The notes: generated from the sequence alone by a model not told the origin. A stretch of 64,000 nt of DNA from Thermodesulfovibrionales bacterium (GCA_020062545.1 JAGUWD010000003.1:62001-126000); one strand, 5' to 3'. Counted from the first letter of the stretch, positions 9,501 through 37,320 are shown. Translations and numbers: made by a program.

Positions 9501-10111
9501 ATGTAGTAATCTATTCGTTTGTTATATCTGCTGCAGATCAGAAAAACCGCTATATACCGCTAACCGGAGAAGGTGGGGAGATTGCTAAGGATATAGCCGC
9601 CGGACGCGTCAATGTAGCCTTTTCTCGTGCGAGACGGCAGGTGCACTGTGTGACCAGTATGCCTACAGAGAGATTCCCTGAAGGTATTTGGATCGATAAG
9701 TTCCTTAAATATGTGGAAAAACACGGTGAAATTGACTTTTACGCAACCGACCTGAAACCATTCGATTCTTACTTTGAAGAAGAATTCTACCATCTTGCCC
9801 ATAATAGCCTACAAAATCCCCAATACATCATACGTAATCAAGTAAGAAGTTGCGGCTTCAAAATTGATTTTGTTATAAGTAATCCACTAAACGGCAAGAA
9901 AGTAGCGGTTGAGTGCGATGGGCCAATGCATTTTAAGGATGAAATTGATCAGGAGTGTAGCATATACATTGAGTCGGATGAGGAGCGGCAGCGGATACTT
10001 GAAGATGCGGGTTATAGAGGGTGCTTTTATCGGATCAAATATTCGGATTGGATAAAGAGAGACTTTGATAGAAACAAGGTGATACGTGATATTGTTAATA
10101 GGCTTTCTTGA
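6530..10111 (+). CDS. SF1 helicase with C-terminal Vsr/MTES_1575-like nuclease domain, probable defence protein
   Basis: The 1193 aa protein is a superfamily 1 helicase of the UPF1/DNA2-like type fused to a nuclease. Visible motifs are Walker A GPPGTGKS (residues 336-343), Walker B DESSQ (782-786), the Q-x-H-Y-R-S-P motif (about 862-868), GIQGDEKDVVIYS (about 981-993) and NVAFSRARRQ (1028-1037). About 430 residues with coiled-coil character separate motifs I and II. The C-terminal part has D1113, E1128 and D1130 (VECDGPMHF), the pattern of Vsr-like/REase_MTES_1575 nucleases. Proteins of this architecture occur in phage-defence islands. It lies among toxin-antitoxin genes, and its codon use (more CGT/CGC arginine and more A+T) differs from the flanking operons, suggesting transfer. 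Anti-phage function is inference. Confidence 0.88.
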   Translation: MVTISNLLKYCLGYMRLTSRRAYAAQDKFAVFLDKEMFDLSTLLASDVNEAHSCLINLPVFYSVNPKELKPEIEKQYRKEKLIAEKIEEIYNKYKNDEFTKQINLNFGYYEIELPLDMENLDAPEEVEEQFSNKSKSSNNGSSLDLFISQQSEQQKSKTERHPLFSIPILIEKEDSKYYIRPVDPEIQPNISVLEPILDEDRLLQVIEEFGRYETDDRFTLPIEDNSVFAILWKNVCAQLKFTEAKFGESSFQLNEVRISLTPKVNHFLAEDLLKLSRLDEDKLRGTSLTSWIDNADLSNVGDEPSERELYFPFPYDRYQLQVLKIINNKAAVVQGPPGTGKSQTIANLLCHFAANGKRVLFVSQKAQALKVVKDKLNELNINGKKLKYLYGYIPNLSSPQLDESDEMDGIAPQLAGLSQHLTELEYQKKDRNHQTDDLCATVEKKDSARKSFNEAIKDQRVFYQCFKEAQELSSYAVPISSASTFKINFTQELKEKIDSLISKERILRKSLNTYSGPREKLDKWFALIKLKENKYSGLVKRIRDNVQKSGYDGHLQFFRKLNNIYRRLFTQGSAFSALPREIRDYISLTLNQDISRATATAFLDELFLYCRYYEQQKELEDIQSELLKTLAECGLSLDEFFTINSLVAASNFADVKQKIIKRIELEDVVRQLKCQDPNAIGQQLAYTEKTRRERVIIYLQNLINTNINAQFNKITVKQIVNKLAKAFGKSRKAYKTFDNLKRDPDNFKTILGLVPVWIMELEDASRLIPLESAIFDYVIFDESSQCNLAYAIPSMYRAKSAVFFGDSEQMRDTTVRFKTNMAFDELASRYKIPSDLNIKPSKEAVQSVLDMAYLRGFLSKVLQYHYRSPRELIGFSNRNFYEPKGKGLISLNTNYLTYKDTNRIMLIHQVNVSWEKEFSDEVNVSEAEKVLEIVRSLKNDERYRDKSIGILSFFNSQAAYIRKMLETAGYTEDEDVKVSVVEGIQGDEKDVVIYSFVISAADQKNRYIPLTGEGGEIAKDIAAGRVNVAFSRARRQVHCVTSMPTERFPEGIWIDKFLKYVEKHGEIDFYATDLKPFDSYFEEEFYHLAHNSLQNPQYIIRNQVRSCGFKIDFVISNPLNGKKVAVECDGPMHFKDEIDQECSIYIESDEERQRILEDAGYRGCFYRIKYSDWIKRDFDRNKVIRDIVNRLS

Positions 10112-12069: not shown

Positions 12070-12086
12070 CTGGCATCCATCTTGCT
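12070..12086 (+). promoter_or_regulatory. Sigma-54 (-24/-12) promoter of the stress/permease/signalling operon
   Basis: CTGGCATCCATCTTGCT matches the sigma-54 consensus: GG at 12072-12073 and GC at 12084-12085 are separated by exactly 10 bases, with TGGCA and TTGC both present. Transcription should begin near 12097, 25 bases before the ATG at 12122. The same operon ends with a sigma-54-dependent activator gene (24588-26000). Confidence 0.85.
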
Positions 12087-12121: not shown

Positions 12122-12619
12122 ATGGGAAAGAAGCAGCTTTTATTTGTCACCTATCATGACGAGAACCTCGAAGCGGGGCTTTCCTATGCTATGGATCTGG
12201 CTAAGACCATGGATGAAGACATCTCCATATTGATGATCTATAGAAGGAAGGTGATGGAAAAATTTGAAGACTATATGACAGCGGTTACCTTTGCGGAAGA
12301 GGGCGAGTTCAAGACAGCAAGGGAATTAATTAGCGAGGATTTGAAAGAAAGGAACGAGAGTTATGAGGAGAAGGTTCGTCTCCTTACGGGAAGGTGCAGG
12401 GAATCAGGAATTGCTGCGGATGTGAATACTGCAGCTTCGGATGTTATATCTGCAATAAGGAACCTTCTCAGGCAGAACACAAAAATCGATATGGTGCTTT
12501 TAAGCCCGAGCGTTACACATGACGGTCATATTACGGCCAAGGAGCTTAACAGGCTTGTAAAAACTGCATCAAGACCGATTGTAACAATGGCAAAAAATGC
12601 AAAGGCACATGTTGCTTAA
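12122..12619 (+). CDS. Universal-stress-protein-like protein (divergent, no ATP motif)
   Basis: The 165 aa soluble protein has the alternating strand-helix pattern of a UspA domain (KQLLFVTYHDENLEAGLSYA at the start, IDMVLLSPSV near the end). It lacks the G-x2-G-x9-G-S ATP-binding motif present in the two-domain stress protein downstream. It may act as a partner or regulatory subunit rather than an ATP binder. It is the first gene behind the sigma-54 promoter and lies 31 bases before the TauE-like permease gene, with which it is probably co-expressed. Its specific role is unknown. Confidence 0.7.
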   Translation: MGKKQLLFVTYHDENLEAGLSYAMDLAKTMDEDISILMIYRRKVMEKFEDYMTAVTFAEEGEFKTARELISEDLKERNESYEEKVRLLTGRCRESGIAADVNTAASDVISAIRNLLRQNTKIDMVLLSPSVTHDGHITAKELNRLVKTASRPIVTMAKNAKAHVA

Positions 12620-12650: not shown

Positions 12651-13583
12651 ATGTATCTTTATTTGCCGGTAGCTTTGACAAGTATTAACATCTTAATCCC
12701 TGTTGGGCTTGGTCTGGTTGTTGGACTGCTTTCGGGGCTTTTTGGAGTTGGAGGTGGTTTTTTGATGACTCCGCTCTTGATAATGTTCGGTATACCTTCG
12801 ACAGTTGCAGCAGCAACAGATTCAAATCAGATAGTGGCGGCATCAACATCAGGGACATATGCACACTGGAAGGTAGGCAATGTGGATTTCAAGATGGGCT
12901 TTCATCTGCTTATAGGAGGCTTTATCGGAGGCCTTGTAGGAGTTCAGGCCATTAAAATCTTAAGGGCAATGGGAAATGCGGACTTTGTGATAAAAATGAC
13001 ATATGTATTGATGCTCGGAATAGTGGGCATATACATGTTTATAGAGAGCTTACAGAGCATGAAGAAATCGCGTAAGAAAAACGAGGTCTCCCTTACGGAA
13101 TCCCCCGTTAAAGAATCGGCTGTTTCCAGATTTCTTAAGTCATTACCGTTGCAAACGCACTACGAGAAATCTGGCGTTACCCATTCGGCAATTATTCCCA
13201 TTGTCTTCGGAGGCTTTGTTGGAATCCTCGCAGCAATTATGGGTGTTGGAGGAGGCTTCTTGATGGTTCCTGTGATGGTTTATATCCTCAGAATGCCCAT
13301 GCATGTTGTAGTAGGTACAAGCTTATTCCAGATATTGTTTAACTGCATAGAGGTCACGTTCCTTCAGGCATATACCAATCACAATGTGGATTTTATTCTT
13401 GCAGTACTGCTCCTTCTTGGATCAACAATAGGGGCACAGGTCGGAGCCGTGTTCGGAAGGAAACTCAAGGGTGAACAATTGAAAATAATTCTTGCAGTAA
13501 TAGTGCTTGTTGTGACAGTGAAGATAATTTTTGAGCTCACATTAACCCCGTCATTATTGCTTGGACAGGCAGGAGGACACTAA
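12651..13583 (+). CDS. TauE/SafE-family sulfite exporter-like permease
   Basis: The 310 aa membrane protein has the duplicated four-helix repeat of TauE/SafE permeases: GLLSGLFGVGGGFLMTPLLI in the first half and GILAAIMGVGGGFLMVPVMV in the second, with a charged cytoplasmic linker (about residues 135-180). The family exports sulfite, sulfoacetate or related organosulfur anions. A strong AAAGGAGGAG precedes the ATG. Its stop overlaps the start of the next gene (TAATG). That next gene belongs to a family often found beside such permeases, so the two may form one transport unit. Substrate is inferred from family only. Confidence 0.92.
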   Translation: MYLYLPVALTSINILIPVGLGLVVGLLSGLFGVGGGFLMTPLLIMFGIPSTVAAATDSNQIVAASTSGTYAHWKVGNVDFKMGFHLLIGGFIGGLVGVQAIKILRAMGNADFVIKMTYVLMLGIVGIYMFIESLQSMKKSRKKNEVSLTESPVKESAVSRFLKSLPLQTHYEKSGVTHSAIIPIVFGGFVGILAAIMGVGGGFLMVPVMVYILRMPMHVVVGTSLFQILFNCIEVTFLQAYTNHNVDFILAVLLLLGSTIGAQVGAVFGRKLKGEQLKIILAVIVLVVTVKIIFELTLTPSLLLGQAGGH

Positions 13584-14371
13584 TGAATCTCAAATTTCAA
13601 ATTTCAAATTTCAAATTTTTCACATACCTATTTTTATTTTTACTTATATTTACAGGGCAGGCATTTGCCGAGTTGACTGTAGATGCGAATCACAGCCATG
13701 TAAAGATAGACTTCTTTTATCACGGCAGCACAATGAGCGTAAGGGGAGTCTCTGATCCCGGGGTCGATCTCATAATCAAACTGGCCTCTCCGGATGGACA
13801 CGAAGTGCTGAAGCAGAAAGGGAAAGTGGCGGGTGTTTTATGGATGAATGTGGGAACGCTGAAGTTTGAAAATGCACCCGGTGTTTATTTCCTGCACAGC
13901 ACAAAGAAGGTAGAGGACATATTGAGCAGTGAGGAGATGGAAAGGCATTCTATCGGCTATCCTGCACTGGCAAAGCACATACAGATGAGCCCTGTTTCCA
14001 ATGAAGAGGAAAAAACAAAGTGGTTTAACGAGTTTGTGAGATTTAAAGAGAATTCGAGATTATATTCCACATCCACCGGCAAAATATCACTAACAGAAAA
14101 GGATGGAAAAGGTAATTATTACATCCTCACCGAGTGGCCGTATCAGGTTCCTCCGGGAACATACACGGTTACGGCGTACGCGGTGAAAGACAGAAAGGTC
14201 GTGGAAACTGCACAAACCAACATAACCGTTGAACAGGTCGGAGTCGTGAAGACCCTTGCCAATATGGCTAAGAACAACGGGGTCCTGTACGGAATCATAT
14301 CTATAGTTGCTGCGCTTGGAGCAGGTTTCGGTGTGGGCTTGATATTCAGGAAAGGCGGAGGTGCTCACTAA
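13583..14371 (+). CDS. TIGR02186/Alph_Pro_TM-family membrane-anchored periplasmic protein
   Basis: After a signal peptide or anchor (about residues 10-29, ending QAFAE) the protein has an all-beta periplasmic part beginning VDANHSHVKIDFFYHGSTM and a C-terminal membrane helix (about 235-256). This matches the 'conserved hypothetical TIGR02186' family of alphaproteobacteria, whose genes sit next to TauE-like permeases, as here. It is coupled by TAATG overlaps both to the permease before it and the stress-protein gene after it. Unusually, its signal-peptide region is encoded by four tandem copies of the heptamer CAAATTT (13591-13618), whose gain or loss would shift the frame. Confidence 0.85.
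   Translation: MNLKFQISNFKFFTYLFLFLLIFTGQAFAELTVDANHSHVKIDFFYHGSTMSVRGVSDPGVDLIIKLASPDGHEVLKQKGKVAGVLWMNVGTLKFENAPGVYFLHSTKKVEDILSSEEMERHSIGYPALAKHIQMSPVSNEEEKTKWFNEFVRFKENSRLYSTSTGKISLTEKDGKGNYYILTEWPYQVPPGTYTVTAYAVKDRKVVETAQTNITVEQVGVVKTLANMAKNNGVLYGIISIVAALGAGFGVGLIFRKGGGAH
13591..13618 (+). repeat. Tandem heptanucleotide repeat (CAAATTT)x4 inside a coding sequence
   Basis: Four exact head-to-tail copies of CAAATTT lie nine bases after the start codon of the TIGR02186-family gene. Because 7 is not a multiple of 3, slippage by one unit would abolish translation of the protein and could switch the gene on and off. Confidence 0.85.
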
Positions 14372-15228
14372 TGTATAAAACAATAGTTGTAGCTTTTGAC
14401 GGGTCGGAATACAGCAAGGCTGCTCTTATAGAATCCTCGAACTGGATAAAGAGGCATGGCGGAAAGGTCATCATGGTCCATGCGGTTTACTTTGACGAGG
14501 AGGAATTCAGCCTTGCGCCGGAGCAGAGGGAAAAAAGGTTTGAACTCGGCAGGAAGGTCTGCTACCAAACAAGGGAGACGATCTCCTCTGAATTCGGTAT
14601 TGATGTTGAGTCTCTTGTCTGCGAGGGTGAGCCTCCAGATGTGATAACTGATATTGCGGCGGGGAAGAAGGCTGACCTTATCGCAATGGGAACTTACGGC
14701 AGAAAGGGACTGAAAAGACTGGTCATGGGGAGTGTGACATCAAAGGTGATTGTCAATTCACCATGCGATGTTCTTGTGGTAAAGAAGCCATGCAGTGAAT
14801 GCACAGGACAGTACAAATCAATACTTGTCCCCTTTGACGGCTCCGGATTCAGCAAAAAGGCCCTTGAACATGCATGCGAGTTGTCAAGAATGGATAATGC
14901 AGAGATAAATGTTCTGTATGTAATTCCGCGTTATGAAGAGATGGTGGAGTTTTTTAAAACAGAGTCCATAAAAAAGAGCCTTATGCAAGAGGCACAGAGG
15001 ATTACTGCCGAGGCGAATAAGATTGCCTCGGCCCGTGGACTGTCAATATCCACAGCAATTCAGGAAGGGGCCGCAGGAGACAGGATTATAGAGACCGCCG
15101 GTAAATTGAAGAACGATTTGATAGTTATAGGGACTTATGGATGGAAGGGCGTTAGTAAGGCGATTATGGGAAGCACAACAGAGAGGGTAATAATGAACGC
15201 CTCATGCCCCATACTGGTTGTGAAATGA
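14371..15228 (+). CDS. Tandem universal stress protein (two UspA domains)
   Basis: The 285 aa protein consists of two UspA domains (about residues 1-142 and 148-285). Each begins with a strand and Asp of the ATP-binding type (TIVVAFDGSEYSK, SILVPFDGSGFSK) and ends with the nucleotide motif (GTYGRKGLKRLVMGS, GTYGWKGVSKAIMGS). It is therefore likely to bind ATP in both halves and to act in the cytoplasm in stress or energy-state response. It overlaps the previous gene (TAATG) and is followed 15 bases later by a single-domain stress-protein gene. Confidence 0.95.
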   Translation: MYKTIVVAFDGSEYSKAALIESSNWIKRHGGKVIMVHAVYFDEEEFSLAPEQREKRFELGRKVCYQTRETISSEFGIDVESLVCEGEPPDVITDIAAGKKADLIAMGTYGRKGLKRLVMGSVTSKVIVNSPCDVLVVKKPCSECTGQYKSILVPFDGSGFSKKALEHACELSRMDNAEINVLYVIPRYEEMVEFFKTESIKKSLMQEAQRITAEANKIASARGLSISTAIQEGAAGDRIIETAGKLKNDLIVIGTYGWKGVSKAIMGSTTERVIMNASCPILVVK

Positions 15229-15243
15229 AAGAGGTGATAGAAG

Positions 15244-15663
15244 ATGAAAGGATATAGGAAGATTTTAATAGCAGTGAACGGTTCAAAGGATGTGCTTACA
15301 GAAGGATTGCAGCTTGCCCATGATGAAAAATGCTGGGTTACTGTTGTGAAGGTTATCCCTCCATATGATGGAGACCTTAATCTTGTTGGTATTAAGAATA
15401 TCGAGGATGTACTGGACAGCGAAGGAGCAAAGGCTGTCTACGATATGAAGGATATTGCAAAAAAAGAGGGGGCATTGATAAAGACGAGGCTCGAAGAAGG
15501 CGAGGTTGATAAAAAGATTGTGGAGGTTGCAGAGGATGAGAGATGCGACCTTATTATAATGGGAGCACAGAAACGGAATTGGCTAAGAAAATTTTTTGGC
15601 GATAATGTTGTGGAAAAAGTCATAAACCATGCGCCATGTCCTGTATTGGTGGTCGGAACGTAG
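15244..15663 (+). CDS. Universal stress protein, single domain
   Basis: The 139 aa protein is one UspA domain (KILIAVNGSKD at the start, LIIMGAQKRNWLRKFFGDNVVEKVI near the end). The nucleotide motif is altered: the final G-S is G-D (FFGDN), so ATP binding is doubtful. It belongs to the sigma-54 operon and is followed 14 bases later by the first multi-DUF202 gene, so stress proteins and DUF202 proteins are made together. Confidence 0.9.
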   Translation: MKGYRKILIAVNGSKDVLTEGLQLAHDEKCWVTVVKVIPPYDGDLNLVGIKNIEDVLDSEGAKAVYDMKDIAKKEGALIKTRLEEGEVDKKIVEVAEDERCDLIIMGAQKRNWLRKFFGDNVVEKVINHAPCPVLVVGT

Positions 15664-15677
15664 GTCGATGACTATTT

Positions 15678-17318
15678 ATGATAAACAGGAAATTCGAGAG
15701 ACTGATTAACAGGAGAATTTTAACAGAAGCGGAACTGAATGAGTCCATAAATGAATCAAGGATTTCAGGTGAGTATCCCGAAGAGATATTGATAAGAGGG
15801 GGTATTCCAAAACACGAGGTATTATTCTGTCTTTCTGAATATTACGGCTATCCATTTGTGGAGTACGATGAGAGTGTTATTGCCTCTTATTTTCTTATCA
15901 TGCGGCTTGATATGGAAAGGCTTAAGAATGCCCTCTGGTTTCCACTCTCTGTCAGACAGAATAAGGCTGAAGTAATAGCATACAATCCTCATGATCCGAC
16001 TGTTGTTGAGGATATAAAAAAGACCCTTAAAATTGAGAAAATAGATTTCATTGTTGCTCTGCCTTCTGACCTTGTAAGAATTATCGAACATAATTTTGAT
16101 GTGAATCCGAAATTCCAGGCAACAGCAGGGAGGACACCCCTTGCAAAGGTAAGGACATTCCTTGCAGACCGCCGCTCCACAATGGCGTGTTACAGGACAT
16201 CCCTTGCAAAGGGGAGGACAGGCCTTGCATTTATCCGCACCGGCGTATCCTTTATAGTAATTGCACTTGTGCTTCTGAGGATTTTCGGCATAGGCTATCT
16301 GACTGTTTTTGAAGCATTGCTTTTTATGGCCGGCATCGTGATGACAATGGACGGCCTTATGTGGTATCTCTCTGCTCGCAGGGTCGGCAAGAAATTGCTT
16401 GACTGCACCTCTACGGAGCCGACATGGGGAAGCACGGTTCTTAAGGTTTCTGACCCCGGAGATAACCCGTGTTTTACGCGCACCGATCCTGTAGAAGGAG
16501 CGGATAAACTGCGCGCTGGTTGGAACAACCTGTCGCCGGTAATGAGGCGGAGGTTTCTTGCCAGTGACAGGACAGATATGGCTGAAGAAAGGACTGTCCT
16601 TGCTTGTTACAGAACAGTCATGGCGCGGGCACGCACAGGGCTTGCCTTTACACGATCGGGAATTGCATTCATAGGTCTTGGCATCGCCCTGCTAAGGCAA
16701 TTCCATGAAGGCCCATGGACACTGCTGGATGCCGGGCTCATACTGATTGGCGCTGCAATGGCCATGGAGGGCTTTTACTGGTATATGCCTGGCCGCCGAG
16801 CAGGCATAGAGGGATTTGAATCGGTTCAAAAGGCAGAGGGAAAAAAGAGCATCTGGGATTTTGTATTCCCGCCCTCCCTTAAACAAATAAATGCAGAGTA
16901 TGTATGTGTTCCTCCTGTCAGGGCATCACACGATCCAGGCATATGGGCAACCACGGGACTTGCCCTCGAAAGGACAGTGCTTGCAGACAGGAGGAATGTT
17001 ATGGCAAGGCTCCGCACCGTGATGGCAAGGTCGAGGACGGGAATGGCATTCATAAGAACAGGCATGGCCATATCTGCCGTAGGCATCGGGCTACTGGTTT
17101 ATTTCGGTACAGGCAATAAGGCATGGACAATATTTGATGTTTTGATGATAGTGTTCGGCCTGATGCTCATTGTTGACGGCCTTTACTGGAATATTCCTGC
17201 CGAGAGAATAAAGAGGCAATTCCCATACTGTTTCGGAGAGATGGAGATTGTTGTCCCCGATTACGGGAAGCCTGCCCGCTACTGGAGAAAGGCGATATTC
17301 AGTCATGATGACCTATAG
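15678..17318 (+). CDS. MshEN-like domain fused to three DUF202 modules with arginine heptads
   Basis: The 546 aa protein begins with a GspE-N/MshEN-like domain (about residues 1-140: LSEYYGYPFVEYDE, then NKAEVIAYNPHDPTVV), a fold that in other proteins binds cyclic di-GMP. Three DUF202-type membrane modules follow. Each starts with an amphipathic stretch in which Arg recurs exactly every seven residues in the pattern R-[TS N]-x-x-A-x-x: Arg152, 159, 166, 173, 180 and 187; Arg298, 305, 312, 319 and 326; Arg432, 439, 446, 453 and 460. Each stretch runs into two membrane helices ending in a DGLxWYL-like sequence. DUF202 is the membrane part of YidH and of yeast VTC polyphosphate polymerase subunits. 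The function here is unknown. The next gene encodes a paralogue with a 14 base overlap. Confidence 0.85.
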   Translation: MINRKFERLINRRILTEAELNESINESRISGEYPEEILIRGGIPKHEVLFCLSEYYGYPFVEYDESVIASYFLIMRLDMERLKNALWFPLSVRQNKAEVIAYNPHDPTVVEDIKKTLKIEKIDFIVALPSDLVRIIEHNFDVNPKFQATAGRTPLAKVRTFLADRRSTMACYRTSLAKGRTGLAFIRTGVSFIVIALVLLRIFGIGYLTVFEALLFMAGIVMTMDGLMWYLSARRVGKKLLDCTSTEPTWGSTVLKVSDPGDNPCFTRTDPVEGADKLRAGWNNLSPVMRRRFLASDRTDMAEERTVLACYRTVMARARTGLAFTRSGIAFIGLGIALLRQFHEGPWTLLDAGLILIGAAMAMEGFYWYMPGRRAGIEGFESVQKAEGKKSIWDFVFPPSLKQINAEYVCVPPVRASHDPGIWATTGLALERTVLADRRNVMARLRTVMARSRTGMAFIRTGMAISAVGIGLLVYFGTGNKAWTIFDVLMIVFGLMLIVDGLYWNIPAERIKRQFPYCFGEMEIVVPDYGKPARYWRKAIFSHDDL

Positions 17319-18510
17319 TGTATTGGCAGAAAGATATCTCTTGTTGATCGAATGGGGAGTTTTAAACGGAGAACAGCTTCATGCAGCAGAGACTACTGCC
17401 ATTGCAAGGGGCATCGAACTTGAGAGGGTATTGATAAAGGAATACAGCGTGCCCAAACGCATTTTGCTTCAGGCGCTTTCAGAGTATTACAACCGTCCCT
17501 TTGTAGAATATGACGAGAAGATGCCTATCCCTCCTGAATTGCTTTCAGGGCTTGATGGTGAGAGGCTTTCCTTGAGCCAGTGGTTTCCTATAATAAAAGA
17601 TGGCGGCACTGTTGCCATAGCTGCCAATAACCCTGAAGACCCTGCTGTTTTAAGCGAGGTCAGAAAATATATCAGGGCCGGAAGATACGAATTCTGGGTA
17701 GCACTGGCCGAGGATATACAGTGGTTCATACAGGACTTTTTACACGCAAAGCCGGGACTTCTCATAGGAACAGAGAGGACAGGCCTTGCATTCTGGCGCA
17801 ACACAATGGCACACTGGAGGACGAGGCTCGCATGCTACAGAAATGACCTTGCAAAGGGAAGGACAGGCCTTGCATTCCTCAGGTGGGGACTCGGATTTAT
17901 AGCAATATCAGACACCCTTATGCGCACCCATAAATTTGGTTCCATGTTTTATCTGTACTGGATTATGATGGCTGCCGGCTTCTTTCTTGTCATATTCGGA
18001 TTGTCCGACTATCTTAAAATAAGGAAGTCCAGGATGAGGCCGCCGGAGCACCATACACTTGTAGAGGTGACATCTGCAACGGTGCATTTTCTCGAAAATT
18101 ACCATTTTATCGAAAACACAGGCAGGGAAATTTCCACAAAGGGAACAATGCTTGCCCGCCTTGGAGACTTTTTATCAGATCACTGCACCATTCTTTATCC
18201 TTCACCGTCGAGCAGGGAGCGAACCCACCTTGCCAGAGAGAGGAATGTGCTTGCGGCACAGCGCACCGTAGCTGCGTGCTATCGCACCATCTATGCCCGT
18301 GCGAGGACAGGCCTTGCATTTATAAGAACGGGTGTTTCCTTTTCCAGTGTCGGCTTCGGCCTTATGCACTATTTCGGTTTCAGCCTGCTGACTGTATTCG
18401 ATTCTCTGCTGATTACCGCAGGAATATTGATGGTTACGGACGGCATATTGTGGTACATGCCTGTGAGAAAGGAGCAATCCGAAATCCCAAGATGCCCGGT
18501 GCCCCAGTAA
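17305..18510 (+). CDS. MshEN-like domain fused to two DUF202 modules (paralogue)
   Basis: I place the start at the ATG pair 17305/17308, which overlaps the upstream gene by 14 bases. An earlier start at 17248 would lie deep in that gene and adds no conserved sequence. Residues about 1-130 repeat the MshEN-like domain of the neighbour (ALSEYYNRPFVEYDE, ANNPEDPAVL). Two DUF202 modules follow with arginine heptads at Arg158, 165, 172, 179, 186, 193 and Arg306, 313, 320, 327, 334, 341, each leading into two membrane helices. The gene is 15 bases before a histidine kinase gene. The pair looks like an internal duplication product that diverged; its role is unknown. Confidence 0.85.
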   Translation: MMTYSVLAERYLLLIEWGVLNGEQLHAAETTAIARGIELERVLIKEYSVPKRILLQALSEYYNRPFVEYDEKMPIPPELLSGLDGERLSLSQWFPIIKDGGTVAIAANNPEDPAVLSEVRKYIRAGRYEFWVALAEDIQWFIQDFLHAKPGLLIGTERTGLAFWRNTMAHWRTRLACYRNDLAKGRTGLAFLRWGLGFIAISDTLMRTHKFGSMFYLYWIMMAAGFFLVIFGLSDYLKIRKSRMRPPEHHTLVEVTSATVHFLENYHFIENTGREISTKGTMLARLGDFLSDHCTILYPSPSSRERTHLARERNVLAAQRTVAACYRTIYARARTGLAFIRTGVSFSSVGFGLMHYFGFSLLTVFDSLLITAGILMVTDGILWYMPVRKEQSEIPRCPVPQ

Positions 18511-18525
18511 TATAAAGCCAATAAT

Positions 18526-19926
18526 ATGAAGATAGAACACAAAATCATACTATCCAATGCCTTTAATGTCGCTTTGATTGTGCTCATAGGGCTCTTTGCG
18601 TTTCAGAACCTGAACCTCATACTTACAAAACTCAGATTTGTGGAGATAGCCGACGACCTTAATGCATCCCTCCTTGAGATGAGGCTTTCCGAGAAAAACT
18701 ATTTTTTATATAAGGACGATACAGTGCTTTTTGATACAAAGGATAAGATAGACAAAACCCTGCAGTCTATAGAGAGAGTGAGAAAAGACATAATCCGGGC
18801 TGTGGGAGAGAATAATCTCCGGCAGCTTATAACGCGTCTGAAGAGATATTCGGAGGTTATCGAGAACGTTAGAAAAAGCGGCAACAAGAATGCACAACTG
18901 GAGAACATGCTAAGGACAGAGGGTAAAAAACTGAAGGAGTTTTCTGAAGAAATTACGCGTCTTGAGAGGGTGCGTGTCAATGAGATTATTGCAAACTCAA
19001 AGAGGGTTCTCTTTTATTCATTCTGGGCAATACTTCTATCAGCTATGATTGTGAGCCATTTTATTTCCCAGAAGATATTAAGGTCTCTCAGGATGATAGA
19101 GAAACTGACAAAGTCCATATCGGAAGGCAATTTTCATAAGATAGAAGGCATAAAATCACGGGATGAACTCGGCTCGGTCATCAATGCTATCAATTCAATG
19201 TCCGAAGAACTCAGCCATCGCGAGGAACAGATTATCCAGTCAAAGAAACTTGCATCCATAGGCGTTCTTACAGCAGGCGTTGCCCATGAATTGACAAATC
19301 CCCTTAATAATATATCCATGATTGCACAGACATATGAGGAACTGTATGATAAGTTGAGCAGGGAAGAAAGAATTGATTTTATGAGCAAGGTACAAGGAGA
19401 GACAGAGAGGATGAAGGAGATTATAAAAAACCTTCTGGATTTCTCCAGGCCTAAAGAGCCGGATCTGAAAAAGGCAGACATAAATGCCACTATACAAAAG
19501 ACGCTTAAACTCATGCAAAACAGCCTCGATGTATCAAATATCGAGACAAAATTAAATCTTAAAGACGGACTTCCCCAAGTACTCATCGATGAGCACCAGA
19601 TACAGCAGGTATTTGTGAATCTTATTACCAATGCTGCTCAGGCAATGTCGGGAGGAGGAATGCTTTTCATAGGATCGAGAAATGGAAGCAGCAGCGGGTT
19701 TGTGGAGGTAACGGTGGCGGATACAGGAAAGGGCATACCACCCGAGTTTCTGCCCCATATATTCGATCCTTTTTTCAGCACAAAGGGAGATGGAGGAACA
19801 GGGCTTGGATTATCGGTCAGCTATGGCATAATAAAAAATCATAAAGGGGATATCAGGGTTGAAAGCAAGGTAGGGGTCGGTACGACTTTTACTATAGAAT
19901 TGCCGGTTTATAAGGAGGAAGGATGA
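18526..19926 (+). CDS. Sensor histidine kinase with periplasmic four-helix-type sensor
   Basis: The 466 aa membrane kinase has membrane helices at about residues 7-26 and 160-180 enclosing a helical periplasmic sensor, a HAMP linker (SISEGNFHKIEGIKSRDELG), the dimerisation/phospho-acceptor box AGVAHELTNPLNN with His254, and an ATPase domain with NLITNAAQAM, DTGKGIP and GTGLGLSV. It overlaps the next gene, a single-domain response regulator, by 4 bases, so the two form a pair. The signal is unknown. The helical sensor resembles those of chemoreceptors and small-ligand kinases. Confidence 0.95.
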   Translation: MKIEHKIILSNAFNVALIVLIGLFAFQNLNLILTKLRFVEIADDLNASLLEMRLSEKNYFLYKDDTVLFDTKDKIDKTLQSIERVRKDIIRAVGENNLRQLITRLKRYSEVIENVRKSGNKNAQLENMLRTEGKKLKEFSEEITRLERVRVNEIIANSKRVLFYSFWAILLSAMIVSHFISQKILRSLRMIEKLTKSISEGNFHKIEGIKSRDELGSVINAINSMSEELSHREEQIIQSKKLASIGVLTAGVAHELTNPLNNISMIAQTYEELYDKLSREERIDFMSKVQGETERMKEIIKNLLDFSRPKEPDLKKADINATIQKTLKLMQNSLDVSNIETKLNLKDGLPQVLIDEHQIQQVFVNLITNAAQAMSGGGMLFIGSRNGSSSGFVEVTVADTGKGIPPEFLPHIFDPFFSTKGDGGTGLGLSVSYGIIKNHKGDIRVESKVGVGTTFTIELPVYKEEG

Positions 19927-20288
19927 GCAAATACAGGATTATGGTTATCGATGATGAAAAGATTGTCGGAGACATGGCAAAGATGTCCCTTGAACAGGAG
20001 GGATATGCTGTGGAGACATTTTTGAATGCCGAGCCTGCGCTGGCAAGATTGAAGGAAGAAAGATTCGATGTGGTTGTTACCGACTACAAGATGAAGGGAA
20101 TCGACGGTATGGAGGTTCTGAGGACGGTGAAGGGGTTATACCCTGAGACAAAGGTTATCATGATTACTGCATTTGCGAATCTCGATACAGCCATCGAGGC
20201 ATTAAGGGGAGATGTGCATGACTTTTTCCCGAAGCCTGTGAAGATAAAGGAATTAAAGGCATCCATACAGCGGGCACTAAGCAAATAA
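19923..20288 (+). CDS. Single-domain response regulator (CheY/Spo0F-like)
   Basis: The 121 aa protein is a receiver domain only, with the acidic pocket VIDDEK, the phospho-acceptor Asp in VVTDYKMKGIDG, the switch Thr in MITAFA and the conserved Lys in FPKPVK. Without an output domain it must act by protein contact or phosphorelay. Coupling to the upstream kinase (ATGA overlap) makes that kinase its donor. Possible downstream targets in the same operon are the PEP-synthase-like protein or the NtrC-type regulator; this is inference. Confidence 0.94.
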   Translation: MSKYRIMVIDDEKIVGDMAKMSLEQEGYAVETFLNAEPALARLKEERFDVVVTDYKMKGIDGMEVLRTVKGLYPETKVIMITAFANLDTAIEALRGDVHDFFPKPVKIKELKASIQRALSK

Positions 20289-20341: not shown

Positions 20342-22942
20342 ATGAAAAACATTGTTGAACATTTAAAATCCTTTTTTGGTTTTTTTAACAAAGGTATGTC
20401 AGAGCCGGTCCCCTTCAGGATGATATTCACCCGTTTCAGACAGGTGCTCGATTCTCATAACAGGGCGGTTGAGGTCATTGCGGATATGGGTGACAAGCTT
20501 GGAGGAGACTATCTTTTCGACATTAACTACATAAAGAAGGCTTATTCCGAACTGTCTGGCGCTGTATATAGTTCCATGCAAAACTTCGATGTTCTCACGA
20601 AAAATAAATATCTAAAGCTCCATGATGTATTCGAAGGCATTGATAATCAGATCAAAAGGGTGATATATGATGTCCCGGCATCTACAGAACTGGTTATCTT
20701 TTACGACAATATCGCATGGAATATGTCCAGTGATGTAGGAGGGAAAAACTCCAATTTAGCCGAAGTAAAGAACTATCTGAAACTCAATGTCCCTGAGGGA
20801 TTTGCCATAACAACCCGTGCCTTTGATGAATTTATAAAACACAACAGACTTGAAGGAAGGATCGAATCCCTCGGCGAAGGAGCCATTGAGGAATCCATAC
20901 TTAATGAATTACAAAATTTGATTATCAATGCAGAGATGCCTCCTGAACTAAATGTTGCCATAGACAGTGCCATTGAAAGCCTTAAATCCATTGGCTCTTT
21001 TTCTAATTCAGGGGGAACACGCAAGGGGGATAAAGTCCCCCTTGCGTGTTCAGTAAGGAGCAGCGCTGTAGAGGAGGACAGCGAGTTTTCCTTTGCAGGT
21101 CAGTTTGAAACAATATTAAATGTGCCTTTAGAAGGCAGGGCTGTGAAAGATGCGTACAAAAGGGTTGTTGCCAGCCTGTTTTCACCAAAGGCGGCGGCAT
21201 ATCAGCGAGCTACGGGACACGACATAGGAAAGGCAAAGATGGCAGTGGGCTGCCTGCTCATGGTGGATGCAGCAGTAAGTGGTGTTGTGTATTCCACAAA
21301 TCCCAATAGAGATGACAACACCATGATAATAAATTCCACATGGGGGCTTGGCAAGTCCGTTGTCGAGGGACAGACAGATGCAGACCTTTATTTAGTCAAG
21401 AAAGGCGTGAATCCTGAAATCCTCGATAGGAGGATCGGAGAAAAGGGTTATATGTTAACGAACCAGAATGGCGGCGGGATAAACACGGCGAAGATCCCTA
21501 ATGACCTAATCAAAAAAAGCTCCTTGACCGAAGAACAGGTGCTTGAACTCTCAATACAGGCCATACTTATTGAGAAGCACTTCAGAAAACCCCAGGATAT
21601 TGAATGGGCAATTGATAAAGACGGAAGGATTTTTATTTTGCAGGCAAGACCGCTAACACGCAAGGAGGACTCTGTCCCCCTTGCGAGAACCCCCTTGAGT
21701 TTAGGGCAGAAGGAAGAACAGAATCCACTTTCTGTCGTAATGAAAAACAAAGGAATTGTTGTCCAAAAAGGCGTTGGTGCAGGCAGGGTCTTCATTTTAA
21801 GGCATATGGAGGAGCTGGACAGAATTTCTAAAGGCTCTGTGCTTGTGGCAAAACATGACTCATCAAATTTTGTTCGAGTGATGCCCTATGTGTCTGCAAT
21901 CATAACCGATACCGGAACGCCCACAAGCCATATGGCTTCCCTTTGCAGGGAATTCAGGATTCCCACTATTGTTAATGCAGGCAATGCAACGCAGATACTC
22001 AAGCACGGCCATGAGATTACGGTAAATGCAGACGACGACGGCGCAACAATTTTCGATGGAATAGTCCATGAGCTGGTGAAACATGCAAATGCAAATTTTA
22101 TGAAGATGGAAGACGTGTACGAATTCAGAAAAAAGAGATATATATTGAGATACATCTCACCCCTTAACCTTATTGATCCGTTGCTGGACAATTTTACACC
22201 CGATGGATGTAAAACTATGCATGATATACTGAGGTTTATTCACGAGAAGTCTGTTATGGAGCTTGTGGAAGCAGCAATGGCCGGATTGAAAGGACAGGCT
22301 GCAGTGAAACTGGATCTGCCCATACCCACCGGCATTATGGTGGTTGACATCGGCGGGGGGCTTGATGTCACCGAAAGAAGAGATAAAGTAACTTTTGAGC
22401 AGGTTGCTTCGATACCGCTCAGGGCTGTGCTCAAAGGGATGATGCATCCCGGTGCATGGCATGCGGATGCTGTTTCTTTAAAGGTAAATGATTTCCTTTC
22501 GAGTATGATAAGGATGTCCGATATAACTTCGGACAGCATGGAGTATGTTGGATACAATGTGGCTGTTATATCACGGGAGTATATGAACCTGAGCTTAAGG
22601 TTCGGATACCATTTCAATATGCTCGACTGCTACTGCAGCGGGAACACGAGGAACAACCACATATATTTTCGTTTTGTAGGCGGCGCAACAGACATTGTAA
22701 AACGCTCAAGGAGGATAGATCTTATCGCAGCGATTTTGAAGGAATACGGTTTCAATATAAACATAAAGGGAGATCTTATCATTGCGAGGCTTGCCAATAT
22801 AAGGCAGGACGAGATGGAGAATATTCTCGACCAACTGGGCAGGCTGATTGCATATACAAGACAGATCGATGCAGTGCTTCATGACGATTGTGCTGTTGAA
22901 CGATATAGCAGGAACTTCCTGAAAGAAAATTATGGACTTTAA
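20342..22942 (+). CDS. PEP synthase/pyruvate phosphate dikinase-like protein with atypical C-terminus
   Basis: The 866 aa protein has a ~110-residue N-terminal extension, then a PPDK/PpsA ATP-grasp domain (VGGKNSNLAEVKN, PEGFAITTRAF, CSVRSSAVEEDSEFSFAGQF, IEWAIDKDGRIFILQARPLT) and the swivelling phosphohistidine domain with His530 in GTPTSHMASLCREF. The usual C-terminal PEP/pyruvate TIM barrel is not visible. Instead about 290 residues of different sequence follow (IMVVDIGGGLDV, HIYFRFVGGATDI). It could phosphorylate His530 from ATP, but the final acceptor is uncertain. Two copies of a palindromic element are inserted in frame (peptide TRKxDxVPLA at residues 226-235 and 439-448). It lies between kinase-regulator genes in the sigma-54 operon. 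Confidence 0.85.
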   Translation: MKNIVEHLKSFFGFFNKGMSEPVPFRMIFTRFRQVLDSHNRAVEVIADMGDKLGGDYLFDINYIKKAYSELSGAVYSSMQNFDVLTKNKYLKLHDVFEGIDNQIKRVIYDVPASTELVIFYDNIAWNMSSDVGGKNSNLAEVKNYLKLNVPEGFAITTRAFDEFIKHNRLEGRIESLGEGAIEESILNELQNLIINAEMPPELNVAIDSAIESLKSIGSFSNSGGTRKGDKVPLACSVRSSAVEEDSEFSFAGQFETILNVPLEGRAVKDAYKRVVASLFSPKAAAYQRATGHDIGKAKMAVGCLLMVDAAVSGVVYSTNPNRDDNTMIINSTWGLGKSVVEGQTDADLYLVKKGVNPEILDRRIGEKGYMLTNQNGGGINTAKIPNDLIKKSSLTEEQVLELSIQAILIEKHFRKPQDIEWAIDKDGRIFILQARPLTRKEDSVPLARTPLSLGQKEEQNPLSVVMKNKGIVVQKGVGAGRVFILRHMEELDRISKGSVLVAKHDSSNFVRVMPYVSAIITDTGTPTSHMASLCREFRIPTIVNAGNATQILKHGHEITVNADDDGATIFDGIVHELVKHANANFMKMEDVYEFRKKRYILRYISPLNLIDPLLDNFTPDGCKTMHDILRFIHEKSVMELVEAAMAGLKGQAAVKLDLPIPTGIMVVDIGGGLDVTERRDKVTFEQVASIPLRAVLKGMMHPGAWHADAVSLKVNDFLSSMIRMSDITSDSMEYVGYNVAVISREYMNLSLRFGYHFNMLDCYCSGNTRNNHIYFRFVGGATDIVKRSRRIDLIAAILKEYGFNINIKGDLIIARLANIRQDEMENILDQLGRLIAYTRQIDAVLHDDCAVERYSRNFLKENYGL
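21015..21051. repeat. Palindromic element inserted in frame, copy 1
   Basis: GAACACGCAAGGGGGA (21015-21030) and TCCCCCTTGCGTGTTC (21036-21051) are perfect 16-bp complementary arms around a 5-base loop. The element is translated in the PEP-synthase-like gene as TRKGDKVPLAC, just before the conserved SVRSSA motif, where family members have no such insertion as far as I know. Confidence 0.85.
21655..21685. repeat. Palindromic element inserted in frame, copy 2
   Basis: The sequence repeats copy 1: CGCAAGGAGGAC (21659-21670), a 3-base loop and GTCCCCCTTGCG (21674-21685), arms complementary with one mismatch. It shares AACACGCAAGG and GTCCCCCTTGCG with copy 1 and is read in the same frame, giving TRKEDSVPLAR, placed right after the end of the ATP-grasp domain (QARPLT). 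Confidence 0.85.
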
Positions 22943-22947
22943 TCGCC

Positions 22948-24576
22948 ATGAAGAAGAGTCTTAAACTCACTACAAAATTCATGCTCGGAATAGGAATAAT
23001 CCTGTTGTGTGCTGCCGGAGTGGCTTCTGTTGTTTTCTATGAATATATGAAAGATCTCTACATAAAAGAGGCATACGAAAAGACCGACCTCGTATTGGGG
23101 CATATCGACGCCACAATGGAATATGTCCGTGATGAATTAAGGCCGCAGTTGTTCCATGCATTGCCAAAGGATGAGTTTATCCGCGAGGCAATGTCAACAT
23201 CCTTTGTTAATAAAGGGATTATGAGAAGGTTTGACAAGAGATTTCCTGACTATATTTACAGAAGGGTTGCCATAAACCCCATGAATCCCAAAAATAAGGC
23301 CGATGATTTCGAAGCTGATTTTATAAGAAGATTTTCCGTAACCCCGTTTGCTAAAGGGGGGCAAGGTGGGTTGCGAGACCGGAATGGATGGAAGGGCGAT
23401 GAATGGAAGGGGTTAACTACAAAGGGTGGCAGGAGATTTTTTGTGCATCTAAAGGCAGTTGTCATGGAAGAACAGTGCATAATGTGCCATGGAGACCCTT
23501 CCTATTCACCCAAATCCCTTATCCAGCGATACGGCAGGGAGCATGGCCACTACTGGAAGGTGGGGGATGTAATCGGACTGGAGTCCATTGCAATCCCTGT
23601 GGATGACACATTCTATCAGATACGCAGGGTTGCCTTTTCCTTGTTTCTTTTAGGTTTGACTGGTACAGTAGCCCTTTTTTTTATTCTCAATTATTTTTAC
23701 TATACAGTTGCAGTGAGGCCATTAAAGAGGGTGAGTTCATTTTTCAAATCAATTGTGAGCGGCCAGAAAGGGTTGGATGTAAGATTCGATGTTAAAGGTC
23801 AGGATGAAATATCCGAGGTTGCGGAGTCCTTTAATCAAATGGTCTCTCACCTCAAGAAATCACAGGACGAAAGAAAGGAAATGGAAGAAAAGGTGAGGCA
23901 GGCCGAAAAATTAGCCTCCATAGGCCAACTGGCTGCAGGCGTTGCCCATGAGATTAACAATCCCCTGAGCATAATACTTGGATATACAAGGATGTTGACC
24001 GAGGATTGTCCTGCAAATGAACAGATAAAGGAAGACCTCGCCGTGGTTCAGAATAATGCAAGACTCTGTAAAAAGATAGTTGAAGACCTCCTGAATTTTT
24101 CAAGGCAGACAAATCTCCAGCCTGTCAAAGCCGATATTAATGAGACAATAGAGTCTGTGGTCAGTGCAATGGAAGGCAAATTTAGAGACAGGGAAATTGC
24201 CATAATAAGAAATTATGACCGCTCATTGCCAGTAATTGGAATTGACGTAGATAAAATGAAGCAGGTCTTTATGAACCTCCTCATGAATTCTTTTCAGGCA
24301 ATGTATTCCAAAGGCGCTATTAACATATCCACCCGTTATGACGAAAACACGAATGGAGTTTTGATTGTCTTTTCCGACACGGGATGCGGAATCCCAAAGA
24401 ATATACAACACAAAATATTTGATCCCTTCTTTACCACAAAGGAACCGGGATATGGCACAGGCCTTGGTCTTGCCGTCACTTACGGCATAATTAAAGAGCA
24501 TCGTGGTGAAATTTCTGTGGAAAGCGAGGAAGGCAAAGGAACTGTATTCAAGATATGGCTGCCATTGAAGATGTAA
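22948..24576 (+). CDS. Haem-binding (Tll0287/DUF3365-like) sensor histidine kinase
   Basis: The 542 aa kinase has a membrane helix at about residues 8-30, a periplasmic Tll0287/DUF3365-like sensor with a c-type haem site CIMCHG (Cys177, Cys180, His181), a second membrane helix (about 225-250), HAMP, the phospho-acceptor box [13 protein letters not shown] with His334, and an ATPase domain ([25 protein letters not shown]). Covalent haem outside the membrane suggests it senses redox state, oxygen, NO or another gas. The gene overlaps the next one, an NtrC-type regulator, which is its likely partner. A glycine-rich insertion ([13 protein letters not shown]) in the sensor appears to come from another palindromic repeat (23341-23372). 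Confidence 0.92.
23341..23372. repeat. Imperfect palindromic repeat inserted in the haem-kinase gene
   Basis: CCCCGTTTGCTAAAGGGG is an imperfect palindrome followed by GGCAAGGTGGG, typical of the dispersed 'CCCCnnTTTnnTAAAGGGGGGCAAGGGGG' element. It is translated as [10 protein letters not shown] within the DUF3365-like sensor, where low-complexity glycine is not expected. Confidence 0.5.
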
Positions 24577-24587
24577 AGGTATTTCCT

Positions 24588-26000
24588 ATGAGACAATCAA
24601 TCCTTATAGTTGACGATATGCCGGATATGCGCAGGATGCTGGAAAAGCTTATTCTGAGGTCTTTCAGCAATGTGGATGTGCGTACTGCCGCCAGCGGAGA
24701 AGATTCCCTGAAGATTATCCCTGAGAATAACATCGGCGTTGTCCTCGCTGATATAAGGATGCGCGGGATGGACGGCATAGAGCTTTTGAAAAGGATTAAA
24801 AAATTGAACGAATCCATTACGGTTATCCTGATGACTGCCTACGGGAGCATAGAGAACGCTGTGGACGCCCTGAAATTAGGGGCTTACGATTACATAACCA
24901 AACCCTTTGATGAAGAGAGGCTGCTGCATGTCGTCAGGAAGGCCATCGAGCATTACACCCTTGTTCAGAGGAACCTCGACCTTGAAAGGAGGATTAAAGA
25001 GAAGGAGGCCATTGAGGGTTTTGTTGGAGAGTCTGCCCGGATCAAGAGACTTGTGGAAACAATACAGCTCGTGGCAAATACGGATGTAACAGTGCTGATT
25101 ACAGGCGAAACAGGTACAGGCAAGGACCTGACGGCGAGGATGATACATACCATGAGCACCAGGGCAAACAAGCCCTTTGTTGCTGTAAACTGTCCTGCGA
25201 TTCCCGAAAATATACTGGAGAGCGAGCTTTTCGGTTATAAAAAAGGGGCCTTTACAGGTGCAATACATGACAAGGAAGGCCTGTTTCAAACCGCCGGTGG
25301 AGGCACTCTCTTTCTTGATGAGATCGGCGATATCTCTCCTGTGCTTCAGGCAAAACTCCTGAGAGTTCTGCAGGAGAAGGAGATAAAACCTCTGGGCGAT
25401 ACGCACACATATAGAGTTGATGCGAGAATAATCGCATCCACAAACCAGAATCTTGAGGAGAAAATAAAATCAGGTCAGTTCAGGGAAGACCTTTATTACA
25501 GGCTGAATGTTGTCTCCATCCGTACGCCGTCTTTAAGGGAAATCCCTGAAGATATTCCTTTAATTGCAAACCATTTTCTTTCAAGGTATTGCTGCGAGTT
25601 TGGAGTCCCGCAGAAGAGGCTTTCGGAGGAGGCATTAAAAATGGTGGTTTCGAGGCGATGGAGCGGCAATGTCAGGGAACTCCAGAACGAGATAAAGAGG
25701 GCTGTGATATTCTCAAAGGGTGATGCAATCGCTCCCGATGAGTTTGGATTTGAACTATTAAACTTGCCATACCCTGATGAGGTTATTTCTACTGTCTCCG
25801 GACTTGAATATAAAGAGGCGAGGAAAAGTATTCTTGAAAAATTTAATGTTCAATATATTACCCGGTTGCTGAATGATTCAGAGGGCAATGTCACTCTGGC
25901 GTCAAAAAAAGCAGGCATCGAGAGGCAGTCCCTTCAGCACCTGATGAGAAAGTACGGCATTCATGCCGATGAATTTAGAAATAGTGCAAATAAAATATAG
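24588..26000 (+). CDS. Sigma-54-dependent response regulator (NtrC family)
   Basis: The protein (about 470 aa) has a receiver domain (LIVDDMPDMRR, acceptor Asp in LADIRMRGMDG, Lys in ITKPFDEER), an AAA+ activator domain with Walker A GETGTGKD, the sigma-54 contact loop GAFTGA (about residue 220), Walker B GTLFLDEIGD and GNVRELQNE, and a C-terminal Fis-type helix-turn-helix (GNVTLASKKAGIERQSLQHLM). I prefer the ATG at 24588; a start at 24555 inside the kinase gene is possible. It would activate sigma-54 RNA polymerase. Clear sigma-54 promoters at 12070 and 26096 bracket its own operon, so it is the obvious candidate activator for both. The upstream haem kinase is its likely partner. Confidence 0.95.
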   Translation: MRQSILIVDDMPDMRRMLEKLILRSFSNVDVRTAASGEDSLKIIPENNIGVVLADIRMRGMDGIELLKRIKKLNESITVILMTAYGSIENAVDALKLGAYDYITKPFDEERLLHVVRKAIEHYTLVQRNLDLERRIKEKEAIEGFVGESARIKRLVETIQLVANTDVTVLITGETGTGKDLTARMIHTMSTRANKPFVAVNCPAIPENILESELFGYKKGAFTGAIHDKEGLFQTAGGGTLFLDEIGDISPVLQAKLLRVLQEKEIKPLGDTHTYRVDARIIASTNQNLEEKIKSGQFREDLYYRLNVVSIRTPSLREIPEDIPLIANHFLSRYCCEFGVPQKRLSEEALKMVVSRRWSGNVRELQNEIKRAVIFSKGDAIAPDEFGFELLNLPYPDEVISTVSGLEYKEARKSILEKFNVQYITRLLNDSEGNVTLASKKAGIERQSLQHLMRKYGIHADEFRNSANKI

Positions 26001-26095: not shown

Positions 26096-26111
26096 TGGCA
26101 TAATTATTGCT
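26096..26111 (+). promoter_or_regulatory. Sigma-54 promoter of the YeiH-type permease gene
   Basis: TGGCATAATTATTGCT has GG (26097-26098) and GC (26109-26110) exactly 10 bases apart with TGGCA and TTGC boxes. Transcription should start near 26121, about 70 bases before the ATG at 26191. A T-rich stretch including TGTTTTTCAAT (26063-26073) lies just upstream. Confidence 0.85.
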
Positions 26112-36921: not shown

Positions 36922-37320
36922 ATGCCTGATATGCCAGAAGATAAAAAGTCTTCAAAGGTCCGCAACCGCCGTGTGCACATGGCGAACGAGAGGACATTCC
37001 TTGCATGGATAAGAACAAGCATAGGGATAATGGCCTTTGGCTTTGTTGTGGAGAAATTTGCCCTGTTCGTAAAACAGATATCATACCTCCTGGGCAAAGA
37101 GGTTGTTCCTCCTCCACGGGGATATTCATCATTCTTCGGAATCTCTCTTGTGGCTCTCGGAGCTTTGATGGGAGTTCTTTCATTCATCAGATACAAAAAG
37201 GTTGAAAAACAGATCGATGAAGACACATATCAGCCGTCTTTGATACTCGATATACTTCTTGCTATATCAGTCCTCGCAATCGGAATCTTCCTCGCAATTT
37301 ATTTACTGCACAGCATTTAG
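36922..37320 (+). CDS. Single-module DUF202 (YidH-like) membrane protein
   Basis: The 132 aa protein has the DUF202 signature NERTFLAWIRTSIGIMAFGF at residues 22-41, three membrane helices and a charged N-terminal tail. Arginines 17, 24 and 31 keep the seven-residue spacing seen, in longer form, in the two multi-module proteins at 15.7-18.5 kb, so this looks like the ancestral single unit. DUF202 forms the membrane part of VTC polyphosphate polymerases in yeast; bacterial single-domain members have no settled function. It follows tatA by 18 bases and may be co-transcribed. Confidence 0.9.
   Translation: MPDMPEDKKSSKVRNRRVHMANERTFLAWIRTSIGIMAFGFVVEKFALFVKQISYLLGKEVVPPPRGYSSFFGISLVALGALMGVLSFIRYKKVEKQIDEDTYQPSLILDILLAISVLAIGIFLAIYLLHSI

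Follow-up and report, generated by a model that had tools for sequence, protein, structure and literature searches.

Two adjacent genes lie on the forward strand of the window, by which we mean the whole 64,000-nucleotide stretch of Thermodesulfovibrionales DNA analyzed here. P1 (15678..17318, 546 aa) encodes an MshEN fold followed by three DUF202 modules, and P2 (17305..18510, 401 aa) encodes an MshEN fold followed by two. The start of P2 is most plausibly the ATG at 17305, which overlaps the stop codon of P1. Searches with Pfam profiles found both domains in both proteins above the curated cut-offs. More specifically, DUF202 (PF02656, cut-off 23.4 bits) matched three stretches of P1 (E 9e-17, 61.7 bits) and two stretches of P2 (E 3e-7, 31.1 bits), while MshEN matched with E 4e-9 in P1 and E 1e-9 in P2. 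These matches and the open reading frames confirm the two genes and the arrangement of three and two modules behind an MshEN-like domain that an initial annotation, made from the sequence alone, had put forward; the AlphaFold2 models show the same parts. The N-terminal domain of P1 spans residues 1-141 (15678..16100), with the Pfam match over residues 56-141. Foldseek searches with the predicted structures of both proteins returned MshEN/GSPII relatives (5htl and 8pdk for this domain of P1), the GSPII domain of PilF and MshE being the best at target TM-scores of about 0.6-0.74. Among 68 homologues of P1, all 68 have a DUF202 match at E<=0.01 and 64 match the MshEN profile. The tail of P1 carries a nearly invariant stretch at residues 514-529 (17217-17264), Q-x-P-Y-C...PDY, its one cysteine (C518) included.

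The pair is part of an operon whose genes all lie on the forward strand. Its first gene (12122..12619, 165 aa) has no family match in Pfam and is followed by a TauE/SafE family permease (12651..13583, E 2e-52), an Alph_Pro_TM/TIGR02186 protein (13583..14371, E 5e-54) and universal stress proteins of two domains (14371..15228, E 8.5e-61) and one domain (15244..15663, E 5e-24). Of the three stress-protein genes initially annotated in this operon, those at 14371 and 15244 are thus supported by Pfam, whereas the one at 12122 is not. Behind P2 come a histidine kinase with HAMP, HisKA and HATPase domains (18526..19926), which is conserved in this position, a stand-alone receiver (response regulator, 121 aa, 19923..20288) and a protein with PPDK_N and PEP-mobile (phosphohistidine) domains (20342..22942). 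These three genes together with P1 and P2 form the core operon. Upstream of the core, Nitrospirota loci carry the 165-aa protein, TauE, Alph_Pro_TM and the two universal stress proteins; loci of the Deltaproteobacteria type often have extra kinase, receiver and PPDK-like genes, and the four actinobacterial loci have no kinase directly behind P2.

The PPDK-like protein shares with the PPDK and PEP synthase dikinases the PPDK_N domain and the swivel domain with its catalytic histidine, and its His530 and RSS-Arg239 (the phospho-His and the ATP-grasp arginine) are kept in 85 of 85 homologues. Unlike these dikinases it has no matching PEP/pyruvate domain at the C-terminus, where about 280 residues have no family match. 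Relatives of this protein were found in 68 of 100 related genomes, the close orthologues mostly together with the P1-P2 pair.

A sigma-54-like promoter, TGGCAT-N5-TTGCT, was found by pattern match upstream of the first operon gene (12071..12086, forward strand). Of 22 homologous loci, 18 have the pattern GGCAYN6TGCW just upstream of their first gene, compared with 6 of 1100 random windows. An NtrC-type sigma-54 activator (24555..26000, forward strand, Pfam Sigma54_activat E 1.5e-71) and its paired histidine kinase (22948-24576) lie next to the operon, as such a pair does in many loci, and likely regulate it. Just beyond the activator, a Cons_hypoth698 gene (26191-27609), which we take to be YeiH-type and so a putative sulfate exporter by name, has a second sigma-54-like site about 80 bases upstream (TGGCATAATTATTGCT, 26096-26111). 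This arrangement suggests a regulon for oxyanion export, with about 2.4 one-mismatch sites of this kind expected per window by chance. Elsewhere in the window, 6530-10111 encodes a 1193-aa protein that combines AAA_11/AAA_12 helicase-type parts with an MTES_1575 nuclease domain at its C-terminus. An anti-phage defense system was considered and set aside, PADLOC having given one weak match only (E 0.006). Genes for electron-transfer flavoproteins occur close to the pair in loci L125, L128, L133 and L136 and in L122, L126 and L131 (actinobacterial and Syntrophobacteraceae-like bins).

The initial annotation had called for a survey of genomes, and the pair indeed recurs widely. It is present in 20 of 100 related genomes, that of the window included, with the two genes side by side where contigs permit. 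A wider scan, in which each species was represented by one genome, yielded 119 relatives, of which 80 were kept. According to their bin titles, the carriers are Nitrospirae, Deltaproteobacteria, Desulfobacterota families, Actinomycetes/Thermoleophilia and Gammaproteobacteria; since such titles are uncertain and the gene tree fits them imperfectly, transfer, loss or mis-naming may each have contributed. In one locus (L140:3423-4181, reverse strand), residues 1-92 of P1 are joined in frame to fragments of the PPDK-like gene and the intervening genes are missing; this operon remnant is evidence of loss by deletion. Counting with a module profile gave three plus two modules in 73 of the 80 loci. 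The other seven comprise five cut by contig ends, one with P1 split in two frames (an apparent frameshift) and one with a duplicated P1 (3+3+2). In a tree of modules each of the five positions has a clade of its own, with strong support for three of these clades, which indicates that the positions diverged before the lineages did and that modules were not exchanged. In 65 of 77 loci the start codon of P2 overlaps the stop of P1, and the overlap mostly amounts to 8-17 bases, suggesting coupled and matched synthesis of the two proteins. Taken together, the fixed 3+2 count, the five clades and the overlap argue for a 1:1 complex in which each of the five modules has a set place. The two-gene system is real and widely conserved across uncultured bacteria. 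Searching the DUF202 literature by title and abstract, we found no description of an MshEN fusion, and among the papers listed in a search by terms none treated DUF202 together with MshEN; as far as this search shows, the fusion and its neighborhood appear to be undescribed, as the initial annotation had supposed.

Each module contains a chain of arginines spaced exactly seven residues apart. In P1 these stripes run from R152 to R187 (16131..16238, six Arg), from R291 to R326 (16548..16655, six) and from R432 to R460 (16971..17057, five), and in P2 from R158 to R193 (17776..17883, six) and from R306 to R341 (18220..18327, six). The heptad spacing that had been noticed in all five modules thus stands, with a total of 29 arginines rather than the 28 first counted. 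We shuffled each protein 5000 times and counted arginines in chains of at least three: the mean was 0.9 for P1 and 0.6 for P2 and the maximum 10 and 9, compared with 17 and 12 observed. The repeat R-[TSN]-x-x-A-x-x also holds with few exceptions, namely an arginine after R291 of P1, a tryptophan after R193 of P2 and Ser/Gly at +4 in a few repeats.

Conservation of the stripe was assessed in 68 P1 and 47 P2 sequences with a mean column identity of only 50-54%. Across this set, the 29 in-register positions are Arg in 98.7% and Lys in 0.15%, compared with 68.7% Arg and 18.9% Lys at fourteen off-register, mostly basic positions of the same stretches. That the in-register arginines are kept almost without exchange for lysine argues that guanidinium chemistry, and not mere charge, is selected. 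Stripe arginines are followed directly by Thr/Ser/Asn in 92% of cases, and position +4 is Ala/Gly/Ser in 97.6%. The five stripes of the window proteins have a net charge of +32. The heptad register reappears at the outer end of the first transmembrane helix (TM1), at R201 in module 1 and R340 in module 2 of P1 (at least 90% Arg) and in module 1 of P2 (Arg in 62%). Module 2 of P1 also has four conserved acidic residues (D297, D300, E303 and E304), so part of its stripe may form salt bridges.

AlphaFold2 models of the single chains were built on family alignments (pLDDT 84.3 and pTM 0.79 for P1; pLDDT 79.8 and a low pTM of 0.58 for P2). In the P1 model, unbroken helices at residues 152-203, 287-341 and 427-476 join each stripe to TM1 and are followed by one more long helix each; the corresponding helices of P2 are 153-208 and 302-357. 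Stripe and TM1 are thus predicted to form one helix of 50-56 residues, in agreement with the earlier placement of the arginines on a helix, directly ahead of the membrane part. A helix of 52 residues measures about 78 Å, of which about 30 Å would lie in the membrane, and hence the stripe should extend about 40-50 Å into the cytoplasm. According to the models, each module is a hairpin of two transmembrane helices that returns the chain to the cytoplasm. This number rests on the predicted structures, as a hydropathy scan missed several of the TM1 helices, which contain arginine. A third transmembrane helix, present in 25 of 25 single DUF202 proteins read, is absent from the modelled P1 and P2 modules, and its loss would allow modules to be chained, all in one orientation.

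The DUF202 family occurs in bacteria, archaea and eukaryotes, and we know of no function assigned to its bacterial members. The window itself encodes an ordinary single DUF202 protein (36922..37320, forward strand) with three transmembrane helices and, as noted before, a chain of three arginines (Arg17, Arg24 and Arg31). The chain is exactly three in all 25 readable single DUF202 proteins of the phylum. Such proteins share with the P1 and P2 modules the core N-E-R-T-x-L-A-W-x-R-T and the TM1-TM2 pair; in contrast to P1 and P2, they have one module, three transmembrane helices, three arginines in the chain and no MshEN domain.

The proposed kinship of these modules with the membrane domain of the yeast VTC complex is supported. 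VTC is a 3:1:1 pentamer in which five TM1 helices form a channel, with K24, R31 and their counterparts on the wall, and replacement of K24/R31 abolished vacuolar polyphosphate (PMC9911596). Aligned to the single DUF202 protein of the window, Vtc1 places K24 and R31 on Arg17 and Arg24, in a weak match (E 0.46). VTC (Vtc1/Vtc3/Vtc4) and the P1-P2 pair thus both belong to the DUF202 family, have basic residues spaced by seven positions where TM1 begins on the cytoplasmic side (in VTC these line the channel), and total five modules in unequal shares, counted per complex in VTC (3:1:1) and at the gene level in our pair (3+2 in 73 of 80 loci). They differ in that the P1 and P2 modules are joined into two chains, are predicted to have two transmembrane helices where VTC has three, carry five or six in-register arginines each as opposed to two or three basic residues, and come with no SPX or TTM polymerase domain and no known polyphosphate synthase. 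By analogy, we regard the sum of three and two as the strongest pointer, short of proof, to an architecture shared with VTC.

The MshEN domains have the fold and N-terminal position of the MshEN/GSPII domains of PilB, GspE, MshE and PilF, and their nearest relatives are domains borne by GspE-type ATPases of the same order (about 35% identity). In contrast to those proteins, P1 and P2 have no fused ATPase and have lost the residues that bind cyclic di-GMP. MshEN receptors bind this nucleotide through an RLG...Q motif (PMC5013675). Both copies of the receptor motif RLGxx...LxxxLxxQ are missing in P1 and in P2, and the corresponding signature (NF053729, cut-off 38 bits) scores 11.5 and 15.5 bits in the two proteins, while PilB of the same genome, used as a control, passes with 62.5 bits. 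We consequently rejected the cyclic di-GMP sensing that the initial annotation had suggested. A membrane protein controlled by cyclic di-GMP could be argued from the MshEN profile in P2 and most P1 homologues and from the top structural matches, which are GSPII domains with bound cyclic di-GMP. Besides the motif, one large group of P1 sequences speaks against it by aligning only from about residue 42, so that the half that would bind is truncated or divergent, and we consider such control very improbable. A docking role for these domains can be inferred from the precedent of PilB bound to PilZ (structures 7lkm and 7lko, among the Foldseek matches).

What the arginines might handle depends on the surrounding genes and genomes. 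Polyphosphate, one of the polyanions suggested initially, is doubtful as a ligand. The complete host genome yielded no PPK1, PPK2 or VTC polymerase (PF09359) in searches that were positive in control genomes, which weakens polyphosphate as an obligatory ligand. The search for PPK1 likewise gave no match in 17 of 20 relatives that carry the pair and in 19 of 22 carriers from other groups (36 of 42 in all), many of these genomes being incomplete bins. In the order of the window's genome, PPK1 occurs in 3 of 100 genomes, all of them less complete bins that carry the pair. A bacterial polyphosphate exporter with a stripe conducting as in VTC would fit the shared membrane-domain family, the same basic heptad positions and the same total of five modules, as well as an operon with a PPDK-type phosphotransferase that is intact by sequence and has an acceptor domain without a family. 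The Ppx/GppA-family protein of the host genome would fit as well; this family also serves ppGpp metabolism. Given this second role and the missing synthases, polyphosphate is possible without being favored, and we regard an exporter of this kind as quite unlikely. Sulfur oxyanions are a reasonable rival, since TauE and the YeiH-type gene each lie behind a sigma-54-like site. Sulfate reducers are common in the groups to which several of the carriers belong, and this would suit a channel for sulfite, sulfate or phosphate in an oxyanion-stress operon. Nevertheless, TauE adjoins the pair mainly in Nitrospirota and is not close by in many loci of the Deltaproteobacteria type or in any of the four actinobacterial ones, and a basic path that spans 40-50 Å seems to exceed what a small anion requires; we think such a channel unlikely.

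Alternatively, the stripes could be structural, as a bundle scaffold or signaling helix in which the arginines pair with acids or lipid head groups and stress is relayed to the kinase and phosphotransferase. The conserved acids of P1 module 2, the two-component pair adjoining P1 and P2 in most lineages and the protein-docking use of the MshEN fold in the PilB-PilZ complex all agree with this. Yet a net charge of about +32 leaves too few acids for neutralization, lysine is almost never accepted despite being fit for salt bridges or lipid binding, and the predicted helix passes straight through the membrane boundary and not along it. Overall, we consider a structural role of this kind rather unlikely.

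We tentatively favor, at close to an even call, a pseudo-pentameric, arginine-lined anion conduit formed by P1 and P2. Here, the two proteins would assemble 1:1 in the inner membrane, their three and two DUF202 modules acting as a covalently linked pseudo-pentamer. Five helices, each of stripe and TM1, would ring a path whose cytoplasmic part is basic over about 40-50 Å and which extends further into the membrane, akin to an extended form of the VTC channel mouth. We infer that the arginines face this lumen, where anions of the phosphate or sulfate type, or else a polyanion, may be concentrated and conducted, or held. In the cytoplasm, the two MshEN folds would provide docking or gating for the kinase, receiver, PPDK-like protein and stress proteins and would not sense cyclic di-GMP, and the operon may be turned on under stress by sigma-54 and the adjoining NtrC-type system.

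Several observations weaken this conduit. VTC is not among the Foldseek matches listed for either model, and in the P1 profile search no VTC chain matched, the significant matches being MshEN/GSPII relatives only. Loss of the third transmembrane helix alters the packing. In VTC itself, Vtc1 K24A/R31A raised in-vitro synthesis although the vacuolar polyphosphate store was lost (PMC9911596). The acids of P1 module 2, the low pTM of P2 and the lack of a substrate gene naming the ligand also count against it. A bolder version, which we offer as speculation with little likelihood, is a covalently concatenated hetero-pentameric DUF202 channel with an arginine-lined tube of 40-50 Å in the cytoplasm; as the bacterial equivalent of the VTC channel, it would thread or store a polyanion not derived from a known polyphosphate synthase and perhaps made or loaded by the PPDK-like protein.

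The fixed system of five modules in two genes makes the idea of a pentamer, derived from VTC, directly testable in bacteria, and the arginine-only heptad stripe, nearly 99% conserved, offers a clear handle for mutagenesis. If P1 and P2 do form an anion conduit, they would represent a new membrane transport architecture and provide a clue to the role of the DUF202 family.
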